NCBI GenBank assembly: GCA_004028795.1
Contig: SAIW01000006.1
Span: forward strand, 496,001-560,000
Source of the DNA: Chitinophagaceae bacterium
GTDB taxonomy: Bacteria > Bacteroidota > Bacteroidia > Chitinophagales > Chitinophagaceae
Direction: 5' to 3'
DNA: 64,000 bases
Shown here piece by piece: positions 10,759-42,295 of this stretch. The notes beneath the pieces are model-generated. The model worked only from the letters and a program-made list of their open reading frames with translations. It had not been told where the DNA came from and ran no database searches. The position numbers were made by a program, and so were the translations under genes. Every line of letters starts with the position of its first letter. The stretch's first letter is position 1.

Positions 10759-11253
10759 TTAAAAATTCTTAGCGTCCTTACTTAAGTCTTTTTTATCTTT
10801 CCCTAAGTCCTTTTTATCTTTTGATAAATCTTTCTTATCTGCGTTTAAATCCTTTTTTTCAGCATTTAATTTCTTTACATCAGCATTTCTATCTTTCGCA
10901 TCTTTACTCATGTCTTTTTTAATTCCATTAATTTGATTTTGTTCCTTTTGTGCATCAGTATAGTCGTGCTTAGCAGCATCTGCATCCCTTGCTTTTCTGT
11001 CCTTATTTAATTGAGATTTATCATTATTAATGTCCTTATTATCATTACTGATATCCTTTTTAGTTGCTTTGATTTCAGATTGGTCTTTCTTAATATCTGC
11101 TCTATCATGCTGAATATCTTTTCTATCATGCTGAATATCTTTCATATCATGTTTAATATCAGCCGATTTTGAAGACTTTGGTTTTGCTTGTGCGTTAAGC
11201 ATAGTTGTTGAAGTGATAGCAATAATTGCTAGTAATAAAAATTTAGTTTTCAT
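10759..11253 (-). CDS. Exported Asp/Lys-rich heptapeptide-repeat protein, function unknown
   Basis: The 164-residue protein has a signal peptide ending in MLNAQA (residues 1-23). The rest is built almost entirely of seven-residue units such as KDIQHDR, KDINNDK, LNADKKD, LSKDKKD and LGKDKKD. One aliphatic residue per heptad sits in an otherwise Asp/Lys/Asn/Gln sequence, with no Cys, Trp or Pro in the repeat part. This gives an extended, highly charged helix or disordered chain, reminiscent of LEA-type or other hydrophilic stress proteins; that comparison is composition only. It is monocistronic with its own terminator and is divergent from the Thr-rich barrel gene across a 214-bp region. Confidence 0.75.
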   Translation of the reverse strand: MKTKFLLLAIIAITSTTMLNAQAKPKSSKSADIKHDMKDIQHDRKDIQHDRADIKKDQSEIKATKKDISNDNKDINNDKSQLNKDRKARDADAAKHDYTDAQKEQNQINGIKKDMSKDAKDRNADVKKLNAEKKDLNADKKDLSKDKKDLGKDKKDLSKDAKNF

Positions 11254-14065: not shown

Positions 14066-14896
14066 TTATTCTTCAGAAACCTGGAATGTTATACCTTGTT
14101 TATGACGGTAAATTACTTTACGTCCGTTTTGAACAGCAGGTGTCCATTTGGGTCCTTTTTTAATTACACGAATTGCTTCGTCTTTTGTACCATAACCTGG
14201 ATCATTCTCTGCAGATACATCACTTATGTTTCCTTCTTTATCTACAATGAAAGTTACATAAACTGTGTATTTACCCGGAGGGGCTCCATTGTCAACAGGA
14301 ATACTGCTGTTTAAAGTACGTTGCAAATATTTCTGCCATCCCGCAATACCGCCCGGAAATTCAGCAGGTATCTGTACAACAGTAAATACTTTATCATAAT
14401 CTTCTTCCTGTTTAGGTGCTTCTACAATTCCTGAACCTTTGCTTTCAACAACCGGAGCAACAACACCTAAATCTTTTTCACCTTCCTGATTAATAGTACC
14501 GATTTTGGTTTCTTCTAATTTTTCTACGTCTTTAATTTCATCTTCTTTTTTTACTTCCTCATCCTTCACAATTTTGGGAGGAGTGAATTTAGTAATCTCC
14601 ACTTTAGGAGGTTCTTGCTTTGGCGGAGGTGGTGGAGGTGGCTCAGGTTTTTTCTCATCTTGCTTTACGGCTTCAAGATTCATATCTTGTACAAAAACTT
14701 GTGCCTTAGGCTTTTTGATAGAATTGGCCAAAATACTACCTATTAGCAAAAGCAAACAAAGAGAAATAGTACCTACAACTGCATATGTAATACGCCTGTT
14801 ATAAGTTTTACGCAGGTCATAAGCACCATAAGCTTTATTACGGCCCTCGAAAAGAATATCGAGAATGTCTGCGGTTAAAATTTTATTTGTTTCCAT
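14066..14896 (-). CDS. tonB: Energy transducer TonB
   Basis: The 276-residue protein begins with the Bacteroidota-type cytoplasmic leader LDILFEGRNKAYGAYDLRK, then a membrane helix (about 35-58). A proline/lysine/glutamate spacer contains EPPPPPPPKQEPP. The C-terminal TonB domain (about 185-276) has AEFPGGIAGWQKYLQ, YVTFIVDKEGNISDV and PKWTPAVQNGRKV. TonB passes energy from the ExbB/ExbD proton channel to outer-membrane TonB-dependent receptors. It is the last gene of an operon with exbB and two exbD genes. A second TonB of the same type lies at 41465..42295. Confidence 0.95.
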   Translation of the reverse strand: METNKILTADILDILFEGRNKAYGAYDLRKTYNRRITYAVVGTISLCLLLLIGSILANSIKKPKAQVFVQDMNLEAVKQDEKKPEPPPPPPPKQEPPKVEITKFTPPKIVKDEEVKKEDEIKDVEKLEETKIGTINQEGEKDLGVVAPVVESKGSGIVEAPKQEEDYDKVFTVVQIPAEFPGGIAGWQKYLQRTLNSSIPVDNGAPPGKYTVYVTFIVDKEGNISDVSAENDPGYGTKDEAIRVIKKGPKWTPAVQNGRKVIYRHKQGITFQVSEE

Positions 14897-14941: not shown

Positions 14942-15496
14942 TTATTTAGCCTGACCCTCTGTTACGTGTACTAATTGGCTTTCTACTTCTGATATATCAA
15001 CCAATGCATATTTTTTTACAACATTGATAGACATTTCATCTAATATATCAACCACATTTTTGTATTTGCATTCACTATCAGGTTTAATAACAACAACAAA
15101 ATCATCAGGAGGAGTGTTTGCTTTTTTTCTGATAATAACAGAACGTATTCCCTCATCACTGTTACCGAAGTTTGATGATTTAAATTTTGCAGAAGCATTG
15201 TTGTTATCTAACTGACCTTCATAATAAAACACATGATTGTCTTTACCAAGTAGTATGGTTATAACACCGGATTCTTTTGCTTTATTCTGGTCTTCAGGTT
15301 TATCTGCATCTTTAGGCAGGTTCAGCTTAAAGGCTGTTGCCTGACTCATTGTTGTAGTAAAAATGAAGAATGTAATAAGCAGGAAACCTAAATCCACCAT
15401 TGGAGTTAAATCCACACGAGTAGATAGCTTTTTACCTTTTTTAACGCCCGGCCCTTTTTTATGACCGCCGCCGGACGAGGTATCCATTTCTGCCAT
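14942..15496 (-). CDS. exbD: ExbD/TolR family biopolymer transport protein (second ExbD)
   Basis: The 184-residue protein has a short cytoplasmic Lys/Gly-rich start and the conserved membrane helix STRVDLTPMVDLGFLLITFF, whose Asp is the proton-carrying residue in this family. A periplasmic domain follows, with GVITILLGKDNHVFYYEG and DDFVVVIKPDSECKYKNVV. It works with ExbB and TonB. It lies 29 bp downstream of a different ExbD; two unequal ExbD genes in one operon are common in Bacteroidota. Confidence 0.93.
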   Translation of the reverse strand: MAEMDTSSGGGHKKGPGVKKGKKLSTRVDLTPMVDLGFLLITFFIFTTTMSQATAFKLNLPKDADKPEDQNKAKESGVITILLGKDNHVFYYEGQLDNNNASAKFKSSNFGNSDEGIRSVIIRKKANTPPDDFVVVIKPDSECKYKNVVDILDEMSINVVKKYALVDISEVESQLVHVTEGQAK

Positions 15497-15525: not shown

Positions 15526-16179
15526 TTACTTTTTAACTTCTTCCTTTGGTTGTCTATATAAATCCGTGCCAACAGGTATAGATTCCGGATTTGTTACCAT
15601 TTGAAACTTTAAGAAATCGTTTTTCTTAAGGGCTTTTACAACGGCATCAAATGAAGGGTATTTTGCATCGTTATCTCCTTTCAATAAAATATTAATTTTT
15701 TTGGTTGGAGAGGCTTCATATGCACTGTGTATTATTCCCATCCATTCAATCATTTCGTTAGGGCCTTTTGTACTATCAACAGGAATACCTGGTAAAGCAT
15801 CTCCTTTTAAACTTTCTTTAGGCAAAGCTAAAAATTGAGGAAGATTGCTGAAAGATGAACCAAAAAACTCAGCCTTTTTAAATGCTGCTGCATCTAATGT
15901 TAAGCCCTTTTGTTTATTGATTATTTCAACCATTGCACCTTTAATAGTTTCATCATCTAACCCTAAAAATACTTTACCGTTTCTGTCGATGGTAATTAAA
16001 ACGATATCCTTATCGGGAGCTACTTTAGAAGCTACTGAGCTTGGTGTTGTAACAGTAATGGCTTCTGAAGGCTTAAATTTTGTTGTTAAAATGAAGAACG
16101 ACAACAAAAGAAAAGCCACATCACACATCGCTGTCATGTCAATGCTCGTACTCTTTCGTGGCAATTTAGGTCTTGACAT
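15526..16179 (-). CDS. exbD: ExbD/TolR family biopolymer transport protein (first ExbD)
   Basis: The 217-residue protein starts with the canonical segment STSIDMTAMCDVAFLLLSFF, including the conserved membrane Asp. The periplasmic part is longer than in the other ExbD, with an insert at residues 85-135, and ends with INILLKGDNDAKYPSFDAVV. It forms the proton-driven stator with ExbB. The 58-bp gap from exbB and 29-bp gap to the next exbD support one transcript. Confidence 0.93.
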   Translation of the reverse strand: MSRPKLPRKSTSIDMTAMCDVAFLLLSFFILTTKFKPSEAITVTTPSSVASKVAPDKDIVLITIDRNGKVFLGLDDETIKGAMVEIINKQKGLTLDAAAFKKAEFFGSSFSNLPQFLALPKESLKGDALPGIPVDSTKGPNEMIEWMGIIHSAYEASPTKKINILLKGDNDAKYPSFDAVVKALKKNDFLKFQMVTNPESIPVGTDLYRQPKEEVKK

Positions 16180-16237: not shown

Positions 16238-17098
16238 CTATTTGTAGTTTGCAGCAAAGCTTTGAGTTAAAGTGAAACCTGATTCATCAATACCAAAAGT
16301 AATTCCATCAATACGTGTAGTAAATACGTTATACATAATGATAGAGATTGCAGAAGTACCGATACCTAATGCTGTATTATACAAGGCTTCAGAAATACCT
16401 TGAGATAATTTTTGAGCAGCTTCACCACCACCGCTATCACCTAAAGCAGAGAATGAACGAATCATACCTAATACCGTTCCTAACAAACCCAATAAAGTTG
16501 CAACAGAAGCGATAGTTGATAAGAATACTAAGTTCTTTTCTAACATCGGTAATTCTAATGCAGTAGCTTCTTCTACTTCTTTCTGAATATTTAATACTTT
16601 TTGCTCGGTAGCTAATTCAGTATTAGTAATCATTTCTTTGTATTTGCGTAAACCGGCTTTCATTACATTACCAACAGAGCCTTTTTGTTTATCGCATTCA
16701 GCAATAGCTTTATCAACATCTTTATTAGCTAAATTAAATTGCACTTTACGTACAAACTCAGCAATGTTACCTGTACCTGAAGCTTTGGTAACAGTTAATA
16801 ATCTTTCAATAACGAAAGTAATTACAGTTAAGAAACAACCGATTAAGATAGGTACAATAATACCACCTAAATACATACGTGCGATACCACTTTTTGCACC
16901 TTCATGATCTGGCCAAAAACCACCATTGGGATCGGGCTTAGTAAAATTACTTGGCGTGCCAATTGCAAAACGCCAGATAAGATAACCTAAAATAATACAA
17001 GTTAACGGGGCAAGCCATGAAATAGAGTTGCCGGATTTTTTTGGTTGAACTGAAGTTGCTTTAGCAGCAGGTGCTGCAGTTGGTTTAATGTCAGCCAT
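16238..17098 (-). CDS. exbB: MotA/TolQ/ExbB proton channel family protein
   Basis: The 286-residue protein has hydrophobic segments near 30-48, 75-97, 188-212 and 235-260. The conserved channel region reads LSTIASVATLLGLLGTVLGM followed by GISEALYNTALGIG. ExbB pentamers surround ExbD and conduct protons to drive TonB. It has an N-terminal Ala/Lys/Pro extension and an extra N-terminal helix, both usual in Bacteroidota versions. It is first in the operon exbB-exbD-exbD-tonB. Confidence 0.94.
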   Translation of the reverse strand: MADIKPTAAPAAKATSVQPKKSGNSISWLAPLTCIILGYLIWRFAIGTPSNFTKPDPNGGFWPDHEGAKSGIARMYLGGIIVPILIGCFLTVITFVIERLLTVTKASGTGNIAEFVRKVQFNLANKDVDKAIAECDKQKGSVGNVMKAGLRKYKEMITNTELATEQKVLNIQKEVEEATALELPMLEKNLVFLSTIASVATLLGLLGTVLGMIRSFSALGDSGGGEAAQKLSQGISEALYNTALGIGTSAISIIMYNVFTTRIDGITFGIDESGFTLTQSFAANYK

Positions 17099-38458: not shown

Positions 38459-38484
38459 AAAAACTCTCCGCAAAGGGAGAGTTT
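38459..38484 (-). terminator. Terminator of the TonB-SBP-TPR operon
   Basis: AAAACTCTCC and GGAGAGTTTT form a near-perfect stem across a short loop, in the 67-bp gap between the TPR gene stop (38500) and nuoA. T-runs flank both sides. Confidence 0.85.
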
Positions 38485-38499
38485 TATTTTGATTATTTT

Positions 38500-40224
38500 T
38501 TATTTACCCGATTTTGCCGGTTGAACACTACCCGGTTTTGCAGGCTTTTGAGGCCCGGCTGCTGCTTTAGTTAACACTTCTTTTTGTTTAACTGCAAAAT
38601 CGTTTTCTTCACCCGGAGTTGGATAAAGGGTTAACATTTTATCACATACTTCAATGCCCTTTGCATAGTCTTTTGCCTTATCACCGTAATAAACCAGTTC
38701 ATAATAAAGATTTATAAAAATAGTTTTCTTATTTTTCTCAACATCTTTCATTAAAAACTCATTTTGCTGATCAATTGCTGCAATGGCAATACCGGGTGTT
38801 GTTGTTGTGTCTAATGCTTTTGCTGCACGTACTTTAAAAGAATAACCTTGTGGTTTATCAGGGAAAGCAGCGATATATTTATCTGATACAGTCATTGTTT
38901 GCACATAATCTTTACCCAAATATGCGGTGTTGGTTATTTTATAATAATCTATTTCTCCCCAAGTACCTTTTAAATCTGCTGCTTTTATTAACCATTTTAC
39001 TTGCTCAGTATACATTTTAGCATTGCCTAAAACTTCTGCTGCTTTATTGATGTAAGCGATTTGATTTATTTTACTTGTATCTACTGCAATTGCTTTTTCC
39101 AAATAGCTAACAGTAACAGCTTCATTACCAGGAAATTTCGAAAACACTTTTACAGCAAAATCATAATCATCGGGCTTTACCTCCGTTGTAGGAGCTTTAG
39201 CAAAGAATTTTTCTAAGTAAGATTTTGATTGAACAGAATCGCCCAATCTATCATAATCTAATGCATACAACATATTTAACCTTGGAATCGGGTTTGCAGC
39301 AGTAGCTGCATCAATTTCTTTTGTTTTAGCTAAAGACTCATTGTATTTACCTGCACGAAATAAATAGTCTGCCAATAAAATATCATTCAAAGGGTCTTTA
39401 TCTGCATTGGCAATAAACTTATCTAAATTTTCTTTTGCTTTATTTACATCTCTTAACTTATAGTATTCAAATAAAGACAAATATGTATCAGGGAATGAAG
39501 GATTAGCAGCAATGGCGTCTTCAAAATATTTATTAAAAACGTCAGGGTTATTTTGTGAAACATAAATTCTGGCAATACGATACATAGCTAAAGCATTTTT
39601 AGGGTCTCGTGCAATGGCATCCTGAAAAGCTTTAACAGCTTCGCCGCCATATTCGCCACCTAATTTTAAATAACAGATACCTAAATTAATATCAATATCA
39701 GGGTTAGTTAAATCAAGTGTTGCAGCTTGTTTCAATTTTTCAATACCATAATTCGGGTCGCCTTGTTTTGAACTACCATCTGCATTAGCACGGCCGATTG
39801 CAGCTAAAATATTAGGATTGGGTTTGCCTTTATTTTTTCCTTTTGTTTCTGTTGTTGCAGTAATAGCTTGCTCAAATTTTTGTTTAGCACTGTTTAAATC
39901 GCCATTTTCTAAAATTTCAATATGGCCTAATCCAACCCAAATCCATGCATCATTAACACCATCGGTTAATGCTTTCTGATATACTGCTTTTGCAGCCTGA
40001 ATATCGGCCGGCTTAACATCAAAACCTGCAATTAAGGCTTGGCCGTACCAATACACTGTTTGCGGATCTTTAGAATTGGCATCGTACAATTTTTTAAATA
40101 CCTCACGAGTGGACTTTACTTTAAATTGTGAACTGAGCAATTTAATACCGTCATTCAGCGACTGCCCTACTGATACACTTACTGCAACCACTGCAGCCAT
40201 CAACAAAAGAGTAATTTTTTTCAT
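38500..40224 (-). CDS. Exported tetratricopeptide-repeat protein
   Basis: The 574-residue protein has a signal peptide (MKKITLLLMAAVVAVSVSVG). TPR-like units run through most of the length, for example DAWIWVGLGHIEILENGDLN, PDIDINLGICYLKLGGEYG, AVKAFQDAIARDPKNALAMYR and PSFPDTYLSLFEYYKLRD. A Pro/Lys-rich tail closes it. TPR proteins act as scaffolds; being exported, it should work in the periplasm. It is the last gene of an operon with tonB, a small membrane protein and a PstS-like lipoprotein. The binding partner is not known. Confidence 0.85.
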   Translation of the reverse strand: MKKITLLLMAAVVAVSVSVGQSLNDGIKLLSSQFKVKSTREVFKKLYDANSKDPQTVYWYGQALIAGFDVKPADIQAAKAVYQKALTDGVNDAWIWVGLGHIEILENGDLNSAKQKFEQAITATTETKGKNKGKPNPNILAAIGRANADGSSKQGDPNYGIEKLKQAATLDLTNPDIDINLGICYLKLGGEYGGEAVKAFQDAIARDPKNALAMYRIARIYVSQNNPDVFNKYFEDAIAANPSFPDTYLSLFEYYKLRDVNKAKENLDKFIANADKDPLNDILLADYLFRAGKYNESLAKTKEIDAATAANPIPRLNMLYALDYDRLGDSVQSKSYLEKFFAKAPTTEVKPDDYDFAVKVFSKFPGNEAVTVSYLEKAIAVDTSKINQIAYINKAAEVLGNAKMYTEQVKWLIKAADLKGTWGEIDYYKITNTAYLGKDYVQTMTVSDKYIAAFPDKPQGYSFKVRAAKALDTTTTPGIAIAAIDQQNEFLMKDVEKNKKTIFINLYYELVYYGDKAKDYAKGIEVCDKMLTLYPTPGEENDFAVKQKEVLTKAAAGPQKPAKPGSVQPAKSGK

Positions 40225-40256
40225 CTTGCTTGCTTTGTTAATAAAAACTTTTATGT

Positions 40257-41171
40257 TTATTGTTCTTTCAAAATGCTGTTACGCACATTAAAATTCATTT
40301 TTCCCGGAACTAAAAAAGAACGCCTGAAAACCAACTGACCTCTTTCTAAGGTTAAGTAGTTTACAAAACCCGAACCTAACCCAAGATAATTTTCTTTTAA
40401 TATGTAGTACAAGGGACGTGCCAACGGGTACTGAGCATATGCAATAGAAGCCTGAGAGGGTTTTGCAAAATAACCTTTCTCTACACATTTAACACATTCT
40501 ACTAAACCTAAACGAATTGTTTTTAAATTTTCAATTTGTTTCGGCTCGTACTGATTGCCTACCCAGCTTAAACCTACAAAGCCTATAGCATTTTCATTTT
40601 TTGAAATTACTTCTATCACGGCTTCGCTGCCGGTGGCTGCCTGCACGTTTTTTCCGAATGGTGTTCCGTTTATCAAAGAGTCTTGTAAATACCTTACAGT
40701 ACTTGTTGCATTATTTCCATCCATAACAACCTGCGTTGTTTTCTTTCCGCTTAAAATATCTTTCAAATCATTAATAGTATACACACTGTCTTTTGCATGA
40801 ATGTTTACTATTAAAGCAACAGCATCGTAAGCCAACACATCGTATTGAGGCTTGAAAGATAATGTACTTTCAAAATATTTTGTTTCATTTTCTTTTAAAC
40901 CTCTTGCTGTAATAATCATTCGGGTACTGTCTTTCAGCAAATCTCTAAAACATTCTACTTCCGGTTTATAAGCAGCGATGATTTTGGTACCGGGATAAGA
41001 AGCTTCATATACTTTAATCTGCTCCTGAATTACCGGCTTAAAACTTTCATCAACACTTATATAAATAATACCCTGTTTAGGGTTATCTGCATTGGCTTTA
41101 GGCTTATTTGTACTGCATGAAAAAAACAATACACAAACACTTAATAAAGCACCCACCGTTATTTTCTTCAT
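40257..41171 (-). CDS. PstS-like periplasmic substrate-binding lipoprotein
   Basis: Translation from the ATG at 41171 gives 304 residues starting MKKITVGALLSVCVLFFSCS, a lipoprotein signal with lipobox FSCS; the longer frame to 41237 lacks one. The body resembles phosphate-binding PBP_like_2 proteins: YISVDESFKPVIQEQIKVYE, DAVALIVNIHAKDSVYTIND and SKNENAIGFVGLSWVG. The usual phosphate-contact text (GSxT/SGT) is not obvious, so the ligand is uncertain. No PstA, PstB or PstC genes are present. It starts 1 bp after the small membrane protein gene and is followed by the TPR gene. Confidence 0.82.
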   Translation of the reverse strand: MKKITVGALLSVCVLFFSCSTNKPKANADNPKQGIIYISVDESFKPVIQEQIKVYEASYPGTKIIAAYKPEVECFRDLLKDSTRMIITARGLKENETKYFESTLSFKPQYDVLAYDAVALIVNIHAKDSVYTINDLKDILSGKKTTQVVMDGNNATSTVRYLQDSLINGTPFGKNVQAATGSEAVIEVISKNENAIGFVGLSWVGNQYEPKQIENLKTIRLGLVECVKCVEKGYFAKPSQASIAYAQYPLARPLYYILKENYLGLGSGFVNYLTLERGQLVFRRSFLVPGKMNFNVRNSILKEQ

Positions 41172-41172
41172 A

Positions 41173-41418
41173 CTAATAATCTTTCTTAATTCCGCGATAT
41201 AATCTGTAACCGCCATACAATAAACACATTCCGCCAAACATATATCTTAACAATTGGTCTTTATCAACTAAAAGTTTTGTAACAGCATCTATTTTTAATT
41301 TATCTCCTGCTACTAAAAACAAGCCAACGCAAAAAATTAATAATGCCATTCCTATGTCATTAATAGACCGCATTAAAGTATAATTTTTTCTTTGCTTTTC
41401 TCTGAAATCAGATTCCAT
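41173..41418 (-). CDS. Small two-helix membrane protein in the TonB-SBP operon
   Basis: The 81-residue protein has a charged N-terminus (ESDFREKQRKNYTLMRSIND) and two hydrophobic segments (GMALLIFCVGLFLVAGD and YMFGGMCLLYGGYRLYRG) around a soluble loop. I know no named family. The spacing to both neighbours (46 bp from tonB, 1 bp to the SBP gene) shows it is part of the operon. It might be a helper of the TonB complex, which is inference. Confidence 0.75.
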   Translation of the reverse strand: MESDFREKQRKNYTLMRSINDIGMALLIFCVGLFLVAGDKLKIDAVTKLLVDKDQLLRYMFGGMCLLYGGYRLYRGIKKDY

Positions 41419-41464
41419 TTAACAATCATTTTAAATTGTCAGTCGGGCAATTTAGAAATATTTT

Positions 41465-42295
41465 TTAATCAGCAGTCATAAATGTTATAGGTACTTTAAA
41501 ATAAACGGGTACTGCTCTTCCGTTTTGCATACCCGGTTTCCATTTAGGCATTTTGCGTAATACACGAATAACTTCTTTATTCAAATCTTCTCTGCCTTGC
41601 TGAATAATATCCAAACCTTCAATACTGCCATCGGGCTCAACAACAAATCTGGCGATGACATTTATTTTCTGACCTTCTTCTAAATCATCGGGCTGACGTA
41701 AATTTTTTTGCATGAATTTTAAAAAGGCTTCTTTACCACCTGGGAATTCGGGCATGAACTCTGCTCTTATCAATGGCTTATCTTCAACAACAACTTCCTT
41801 AACATCAGTATTTCCTGTACTATTAGGAACGCCGTTGGAAGATGCTTCAAGTGTTTCATTTATCAATCCTGTAGCTGCAAGACCCGGCGTATCCTTGTCG
41901 CCTATAACAACTGAATCTATTAATGCTTGATCATTTACTTTCTTATTTACTTTATCGTCAGGAACTATCTTAGGAACATAATCAGTTGCACTGGCAATAT
42001 TATCTACATGCACTTTCTTAGGTTTCGGAGCTTCGTCTTTTTTTACTTCCTCTTTCGGAATTTCAACAGCAGTAAGTTTTACACCATCTAAATTAGCATA
42101 AACACTTACTTTTTTATGAGGCACTTTCCAGCTTTGCAATAAAGCAAACAACAATACAATAGCAGAAGTAAACATAATGGCACGTAACAATCTGTTGTTA
42201 TAACGGCTTCTTAACTCGTAAGCACCATATTGTTTGTTCCTGTTTTCAAAAACAATATCCAAAACATGGCTCTTTAAAATCTGTTCGGGTTTCAT
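41465..42295 (-). CDS. tonB: Energy transducer TonB (second copy)
   Basis: The 276-residue protein repeats the plan of the TonB at 14066: leader LDIVFENRNKQYGAYELRSR, a membrane helix near 36-52, a spacer, then a C-terminal TonB domain with EFMPEFPGGKEAFLKFMQKN, VIARFVVEPDGSIEGLDI and MPKWKPGMQNGRAVPVYF. The spacer is less proline-rich than in the first TonB. No exbB or exbD lies with it; instead it heads an operon with a small membrane protein, a PstS-like lipoprotein and a TPR protein. Confidence 0.93.
   Translation of the reverse strand: MKPEQILKSHVLDIVFENRNKQYGAYELRSRYNNRLLRAIMFTSAIVLLFALLQSWKVPHKKVSVYANLDGVKLTAVEIPKEEVKKDEAPKPKKVHVDNIASATDYVPKIVPDDKVNKKVNDQALIDSVVIGDKDTPGLAATGLINETLEASSNGVPNSTGNTDVKEVVVEDKPLIRAEFMPEFPGGKEAFLKFMQKNLRQPDDLEEGQKINVIARFVVEPDGSIEGLDIIQQGREDLNKEVIRVLRKMPKWKPGMQNGRAVPVYFKVPITFMTAD

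Follow-up and report, generated by a model that had tools for sequence, protein, structure and literature searches.

The four minus-strand genes studied here lie at 38500-42295 of the window, by which we mean the whole 64,000-nucleotide stretch of DNA that was analysed (Chitinophagaceae bacterium, assembly GCA_004028795.1, contig SAIW01000006.1, positions 496,001 to 560,000). They encode a TonB, an 81-residue small membrane protein (SMP), a lipoprotein with the fold of PstS and a tetratricopeptide repeat (TPR) protein. The last three, called the trio below, are probably accessory subunits of a Ton motor, and together with that motor would make up a seven-component machine whose genes the window's family has split in two. 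Glycans, heme and iron reach Bacteroidota through numerous TonB-dependent receptors, on which these bacteria rely, and their Ton motor is usually drawn as the three-protein set of E. coli. If our reading is right, this type of motor also requires a small subunit in the membrane, a binding protein turned to a new use and a TPR scaffold, and many 'PstS' annotations in the phylum become a testable question.

The cluster itself is already known, and the presumed operon of the window is half of it. In 2014 a conserved synteny of ExbB, ExbD, TonB, an 'ABC transporter' and a TPR gene was described for members of four classes, the five taxa being E. anophelis, F. johnsoniae, D. fermentans, A. svalbardensis and B. 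thetaiotaomicron, and a functional link was inferred (PMC4026382). The kinds of gene are the same as here; the difference is that the section on this synteny marks a hypothetical gene in D. fermentans only and has neither the lost phosphate site nor split forms. An earlier note on this DNA, which knew of no described system with this set of genes, was thus mistaken on that point. New in the present analysis are the split form, the constancy of the SMP, a phosphate site that has been lost, a genome with no PstC and a one-sided co-occurrence of the trio with one type of ExbB.

The four-gene stretch and its detached motor block

In order of transcription the four genes are tonB (41465-42295, 276 residues), the SMP gene (41173-41418), the lipoprotein gene (40257-41171, 304 residues) and the TPR gene (38500-40224, 574 residues), all on the minus strand and separated by 46, 1 and 32 bp, as the earlier note had them. 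Pfam families were found for three of the products: TonB_C, PBP_like_2 for the lipoprotein and TPR for the last, which also has an N-terminal signal-like segment as read from its sequence.

The note had further described this TonB as lacking ExbB and ExbD, which is correct for the four-gene stretch and wrong for the window. A search of the genome for ExbD led to four places, two of them inside the window, where about 21 kb from the four genes the minus strand carries ExbB-ExbD-ExbD-TonB (17098-14066). This block consists of exbB (16238-17098, an open reading frame assignment), two exbD copies (15526-16179 and 14942-15496, identified by the ExbD search and by open reading frames) and a second tonB, also of 276 codons (14066-14896), which is the slowly evolving copy. 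As a separate observation, the genome has one more pair resembling ExbB-ExbD and an ExbD on its own, at L001 and L003 (G000:C6 near 57.7 kb; G000:C17 near 104 kb); no ExbB was found in the 3.4 kb read around the lone ExbD.

A seven-gene cluster across the Bacteroidota

With profiles grown from the window proteins we surveyed 70 loci in which a relative of the lipoprotein is encoded, 10 of them named loci and 60 stretches. Twenty-seven were assigned to the window's family, 20 by the code f1 and seven by record title or a shared contig. Of the 43 loci outside the family, three that have a PstS-like gene without SMP or TPR gene (L071, L073 and L075) were dropped, leaving 40. All seven genes stand on one strand in the order ExbB-ExbD-ExbD-TonB-SMP-PstS-like-TPR in 31 of these 40 loci, and in 32 the same strand carries ExbB and two ExbDs no more than 6.5 kb away. 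The SMP gene is present in 39 and the TPR gene also in 39 (the sequence of L014 ends early). The seven genes recurred in all of 8 further loci, which had been chosen partly for adjacent SMP and PstS-like matches, and in 10 of 20 further regions from other families, picked by ExbB, PstS-like or SMP matches; of the remaining regions, two had the motor with the SMP only, two had the PstS-like gene away from the motor and one had no motor. In family f4, four loci carry the full cluster preceded by a gene that we read as leucyl-tRNA synthetase. The constant core is SMP, PstS-like and TPR; the TonB beside them is less constant than any other member. The earlier note had named as a refutation that the four genes should not co-occur outside the genus; in the survey they stand together far beyond it.

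A small STAS-like protein, so assigned from its sequence, is encoded upstream of the cluster in seven loci (L061, L062, L065, L070, L076, L080 and L084), and genes resembling sensor kinases or regulators lie upstream in some of these and in other loci.

The split in the window's family

The motor adjoins the PstS-like locus in none of the 27 loci of the window's family, of which 26 have the SMP, 27 the TPR gene and 13 a TonB. The distance between the two halves was measured by a search for the second ExbD in 60 family genomes, 50 of which had coordinates listed for both ExbD and the PstS-like gene. The two share a contig in 33 of the 50, and in 28 of these 33 the motor lies 15-30 kb downstream of the PstS-like gene on the same strand; the other five comprise one at 14 kb and one at 42 kb, opposite strand, and three that are far apart. 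In the window, genes read as nuo genes start directly after the TPR gene. In 30 of the 70 loci the TPR gene has a gene that we read as nuoA downstream of it, including those of family f3, in which the whole cluster is contiguous. Since the motor is mostly found 15-30 kb downstream and the nuoA neighbour is shared with the contiguous f3 loci, the simplest account is that the four-gene operon is the product of a local rearrangement rather than of a separate origin.

Co-occurrence with one type of ExbB

Co-occurrence was surveyed in 296 genomes of the phylum with two broad profile alignments, A2 and A3. A narrower alignment (A1; 151 of 296 genomes, best 7 candidates per genome) mixed in other PstS-like proteins and was replaced. 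With A2, the best 7 candidates per genome were kept in most genomes; at E<=1e-25 it matched 212 of 296 genomes, other PstS-like proteins still included, and our counts use the 74 best matches. In 72 of these 74 an SMP gene is found on the same strand, at most 1 kb upstream of the PstS-like gene; the exceptions are G425 and G031. Among those of the 74 genomes that lie outside the set from which the SMP profile was built, 28 of 30 had the SMP, many of them being relatives of genomes used. At E<=1e-8 the SMP was found in 84 genomes and stood ahead of the PstS-like gene in 78; three more had no PstS-like match listed and proved on fetching to have the full cluster (L162, L165 and L166).

The ExbB of the window was matched in 191 of 296 genomes at E<=1e-20 and in 173 at E<=1e-47. 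At the stricter threshold none of the 74 genomes with the best PstS-like matches lacks it, nor does any of the 84 with the SMP; the genome of one SMP match just past the limit (G195, 1.2e-8) is not in the ExbB list. Among hand-picked genomes, this ExbB (E<=1e-20) was present in 30 of 30 with the PstS-like gene and in 0 of 21 with no or a weak PstS-like match, the 21 being 20 listed of the 84 genomes missed by A2 plus one with a weak A2 match (G322), from four families. Co-occurrence of trio and ExbB is thus tight and one-sided, as the converse does not hold.

The PstS-fold lipoprotein and phosphate

An AlphaFold2 model of the lipoprotein, built from an alignment of 57 sequences in which Cys19 is invariant, reached a mean predicted local distance difference test score (pLDDT) of 92.7 and a predicted template modelling score (pTM) of 0.86. 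Its best structural matches are PstS proteins (4gd5_A: Z 26.8, root mean square deviation 1.9, 230 residues aligned, 23% identity), while the match to NCBIfam ptsS_2 is far under the cut-off (59.1 vs 206.6 bits). Like the PstS of PstSCAB it has this fold and a lipoprotein-type N-terminus; unlike it, it has no PstC in its genome, has lost the phosphate arginine and stands among other gene neighbours.

The phosphate site was compared between 67 cluster proteins and 12 PstS-like paralogues of the same phylum, at arginine and serine columns which we take to be the phosphate-contacting positions of PstS. The arginine is present in none of the 67 cluster proteins (Asp in 52, one gap) and in all 12 paralogues, the first-motif serine in 4 of 67 (Asp in 59) against 12 of 12, and the serine of the second motif in 1 of 67 (Glu in 52), where all 12 paralogues have Ser or Thr. 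The window lipoprotein has Asp, Asp and Glu, respectively. Summed over 15 motif columns, the mean charge is -4.0 in the cluster proteins and -0.9 in the paralogues. We rejected an acidic pocket residue as proof of a cationic ligand, one acidic position being Asp in 12 of 12 paralogues too. Three of the 12 paralogues were checked for neighbours, and L135 and L140 have PstC, PstA and PstB beside them, L138 PstC and PstB.

No PstC was found in the window's source genome (3.43 Mb, 99.45% complete), while the same search was positive in 14 of 14 controls, 12 of them over the cut-off; the genome encodes a PiT-type carrier. Among 60 family genomes, PstC was over the cut-off in 18 and gave any match in 35. 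The PstS-like gene itself is kept in 192 of 195 family genomes, mostly as one match, even at a genome size of about 2 Mb. Because the phosphate-site residues are changed and PstC is absent, we judge from the sequences that a role as the binding protein of a phosphate ABC transporter is very unlikely in this genome. The earlier note was accordingly right about the altered phosphate motifs and the missing ABC permease, and the other refutation that it had named, pstABC-dependent phosphate transport explained by this lipoprotein alone, fails for lack of PstC.

Neighbouring pairs of PstS-like genes with no SMP or TPR gene beside them were seen in L071, L073 and L160; the phosphate arginine is absent in those examined.

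The small membrane protein

No family was found in Pfam or NCBIfam for the 81-residue SMP. Its alignment (52 sequences) is poor except for Y-G-x-x-R near the end of the second helix, a motif of the family. The model shows two long helices at moderate confidence (pLDDT 75.9); in the window protein the first is strongly and the second weakly hydrophobic.

The TonB copies

The PstS-side TonB of the window scores 45.7 bits against a cut-off of 24.6 for Pfam TonB_C and falls under the cut-off of NCBIfam tonB_Cterm (23.5 vs 27.1 bits). In a tree of 83 TonB sequences, made by a quick method, the PstS-side and the motor-side copies of the family form one group each (support 100); the two groups are sisters with support 85, below the starred level, and branches are mostly longer for the PstS-side copies. 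These sister groups and longer branches are consistent with the PstS-side TonB being a fast-evolving duplicate of the motor-side TonB, free to change and often lost.

Two TonB genes in tandem precede the SMP in four loci outside the family, from four families (L046, L069, L076 and L081), and in all four pairs the PstS-proximal copy is on the longer branch. Within L069 and within L081 the two copies are closest to one another (95 and 99), and these two pairs arose separately; the tree does not settle the placement of the L076 pair. The second TonB of L046 groups beside the TonBs of the window's family (88, with a long branch and an odd make-up), and an older duplication common to both is possible on this grouping.

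The motor motif of the TonB membrane helix, S-x-H-x-L-x-S (PMC12204202), is present in 0 of the 83 cluster TonBs, both window copies included, and the designation Ton is for this reason based on domain and gene content. A motif RNxxYG[A/S]Y was seen in the cytoplasmic part ahead of the helix in 47 of the 83.

Discussion

We propose that the ancestral arrangement was ExbB-ExbD-ExbD-TonB-SMP-PstS-like-TPR, of which the window operon would be the accessory half. ExbB, two unlike ExbDs and TonB would form a proton-driven motor energising several outer-membrane receptors, with the two-helix SMP placed beside it in the inner membrane. The PstS-fold lipoprotein may have turned into a periplasmic subunit that couples or senses, its ligand being something other than phosphate or a partner protein only, and the TPR protein would join the trio to the motor or to outer-membrane receptors. 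A motor without the trio would be expected to assemble and to energise receptors poorly.

The closest experimental system is that of Riemerella anatipestifer, where tonB2 of the exbB2-exbD21-exbD22-tonB2 operon is needed for normal use of hemin and iron, and where the operon has a PstS-annotated gene downstream and a leucyl-tRNA synthetase gene upstream (PMC4446302). Since the f4 loci have the full cluster with a leucyl-tRNA synthetase reading upstream, like this operon with its two exbD genes and its PstS-annotated neighbour, the Riemerella operon is very probably the same cluster. It is likened here by its described gene content; the account of the operon only lists the PstS-annotated neighbour and has no mention of the SMP or a TPR gene (PMC4446302). 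In E. coli a hemin receptor of Riemerella was energised by the three-gene TonB1 complex but not by exbB-exbD-exbD-tonB alone (PMC4446302). A need for the trio, if real, is a possible reason for that failure. In F. psychrophilum a mutant of exbD2, a possible member of the cluster, grows poorly under iron limitation (cited in PMC9331221). Outside the phylum, the TPR genes FSU_2397-2398 of Fibrobacter succinogenes are numbered beside ExbB/ExbD/ExbD/TonB (FSU_2400-2403), both being up on cellulose (PMC6851124); FSU_2397-2403 is perhaps a distant counterpart.

Several points weigh against the trio as motor subunits. Five of the 20 further regions have the motor block with no trio beside it, as do both f17 genomes examined (L156 and L158); in three of the 84 SMP genomes the SMP lies away from the PstS-like gene; and this ExbB (E<=1e-47) also occurs in 99 genomes that are not among the 74 with the best PstS-like matches, owing in part to cluster proteins that diverge further and in part to motors with no trio next to them. 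The cluster and co-occurrence counts ignore kinship, as does a Fisher test on the co-occurrence, and synteny alone is no proof of protein contact. For the Riemerella result in E. coli, expression or a species barrier are alternative causes, and the phenotype is assigned to tonB2 and not to the trio, reverse transcription PCR of the downstream gene being described as a control meant to exclude a polar effect (PMC4446302). We found no functional study of the SMP, PstS-like or TPR proteins in the open-licence full-text literature.

The earlier note had suggested an uptake or sensing system of its own. The lipoprotein would pass a ligand on to a TonB-dependent step, or detect it on behalf of that step, and the adjacent TonB would serve the step. 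The confidently predicted PstS fold, the gaps of 46, 1 and 32 bp and pocket motifs that are conserved though changed are what such a system would have; against it, the adjacent TonB occurs in only 13 of 27 family loci and resembles a duplicate of the motor-side copy (support 85), beyond the family 32 of 40 loci have the set contiguous with ExbB-ExbD-ExbD, and nothing receptor-like was seen among the 25 commonest groups of neighbours, of which 60-residue heads were read. We regard such a system as unlikely, the set being a detached part of the seven-gene cluster; that the lipoprotein, SMP and TPR protein are linked in function to a TonB-energised step, as the note also proposed, is supported by both synteny and co-occurrence. 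An ordinary PstS serving phosphate uptake or sensing would explain the fold, the PBP_like_2 assignment and the weak ptsS_2 match (59.1 vs 206.6 bits). It is very hard to reconcile with an arginine kept in 0 of 67 proteins (one gap) and a first-motif serine kept in 4 of 67, with a genome that has a PiT-type carrier and no PstC, and with the separate PstS genes that stand beside PstC and PstB in the three loci checked. No more credible is a chance neighbourhood held together by linkage to the nuo operon: the nuoA reading that follows the TPR gene in many loci (30 of 70) would fit, yet the same order is found in loci without adjacent nuo genes and the co-occurrence with ExbB persists where the two blocks are apart.

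With Tol-Pal the cluster shares a proton motor, a periplasmic transducer, a lipoprotein and a TPR protein, and its parts could mirror TolQ-TolR-TolA, TolB/Pal and CpoB in order and number, in an envelope machine that keeps the outer membrane in step with division. The near-universal PstS-like gene of the family (192 of 195 genomes, also those of about 2 Mb) would suit such a function, and tol-pal loci are not identifiable in Bacteroidetes (PMC12204202). That same source, the main text of which does not contain PstS, proposes PorE for the role. The transducer here is TonB-like, the probable Riemerella counterpart has a phenotype in iron and hemin use, with a tonB2 deletion that is viable (PMC4446302), 105 of the 296 genomes surveyed in the phylum lack this ExbB at E<=1e-20, and Pfam gave no Pal or TolB family among the four proteins, no search having been made elsewhere in the genome. 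A Tol-Pal-like machine of this kind therefore seems to us an unlikely account. We would give a low probability also to a bolder form of the idea, in which the seven genes encode a distinct trans-envelope machine of Bacteroidota that is at once the counterpart of Tol-Pal and a Ton energiser, with an acidic-pocket PstS, formerly for phosphate, as the lipoprotein that receives force or senses load and the SMP as an additional subunit devoted to the ExbB/ExbD motor.

Other features of the window

A terminator-like hairpin (38460-38485, minus strand) lies just past the stop codon of the TPR gene and ahead of the gene read as nuoA; as terminator-like sites number 5 in the region against 3.3 expected, it is weak evidence. 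At 10759-11253 the minus strand encodes a 164-residue protein with a signal-like start that consists almost entirely of K/D-rich repeats.

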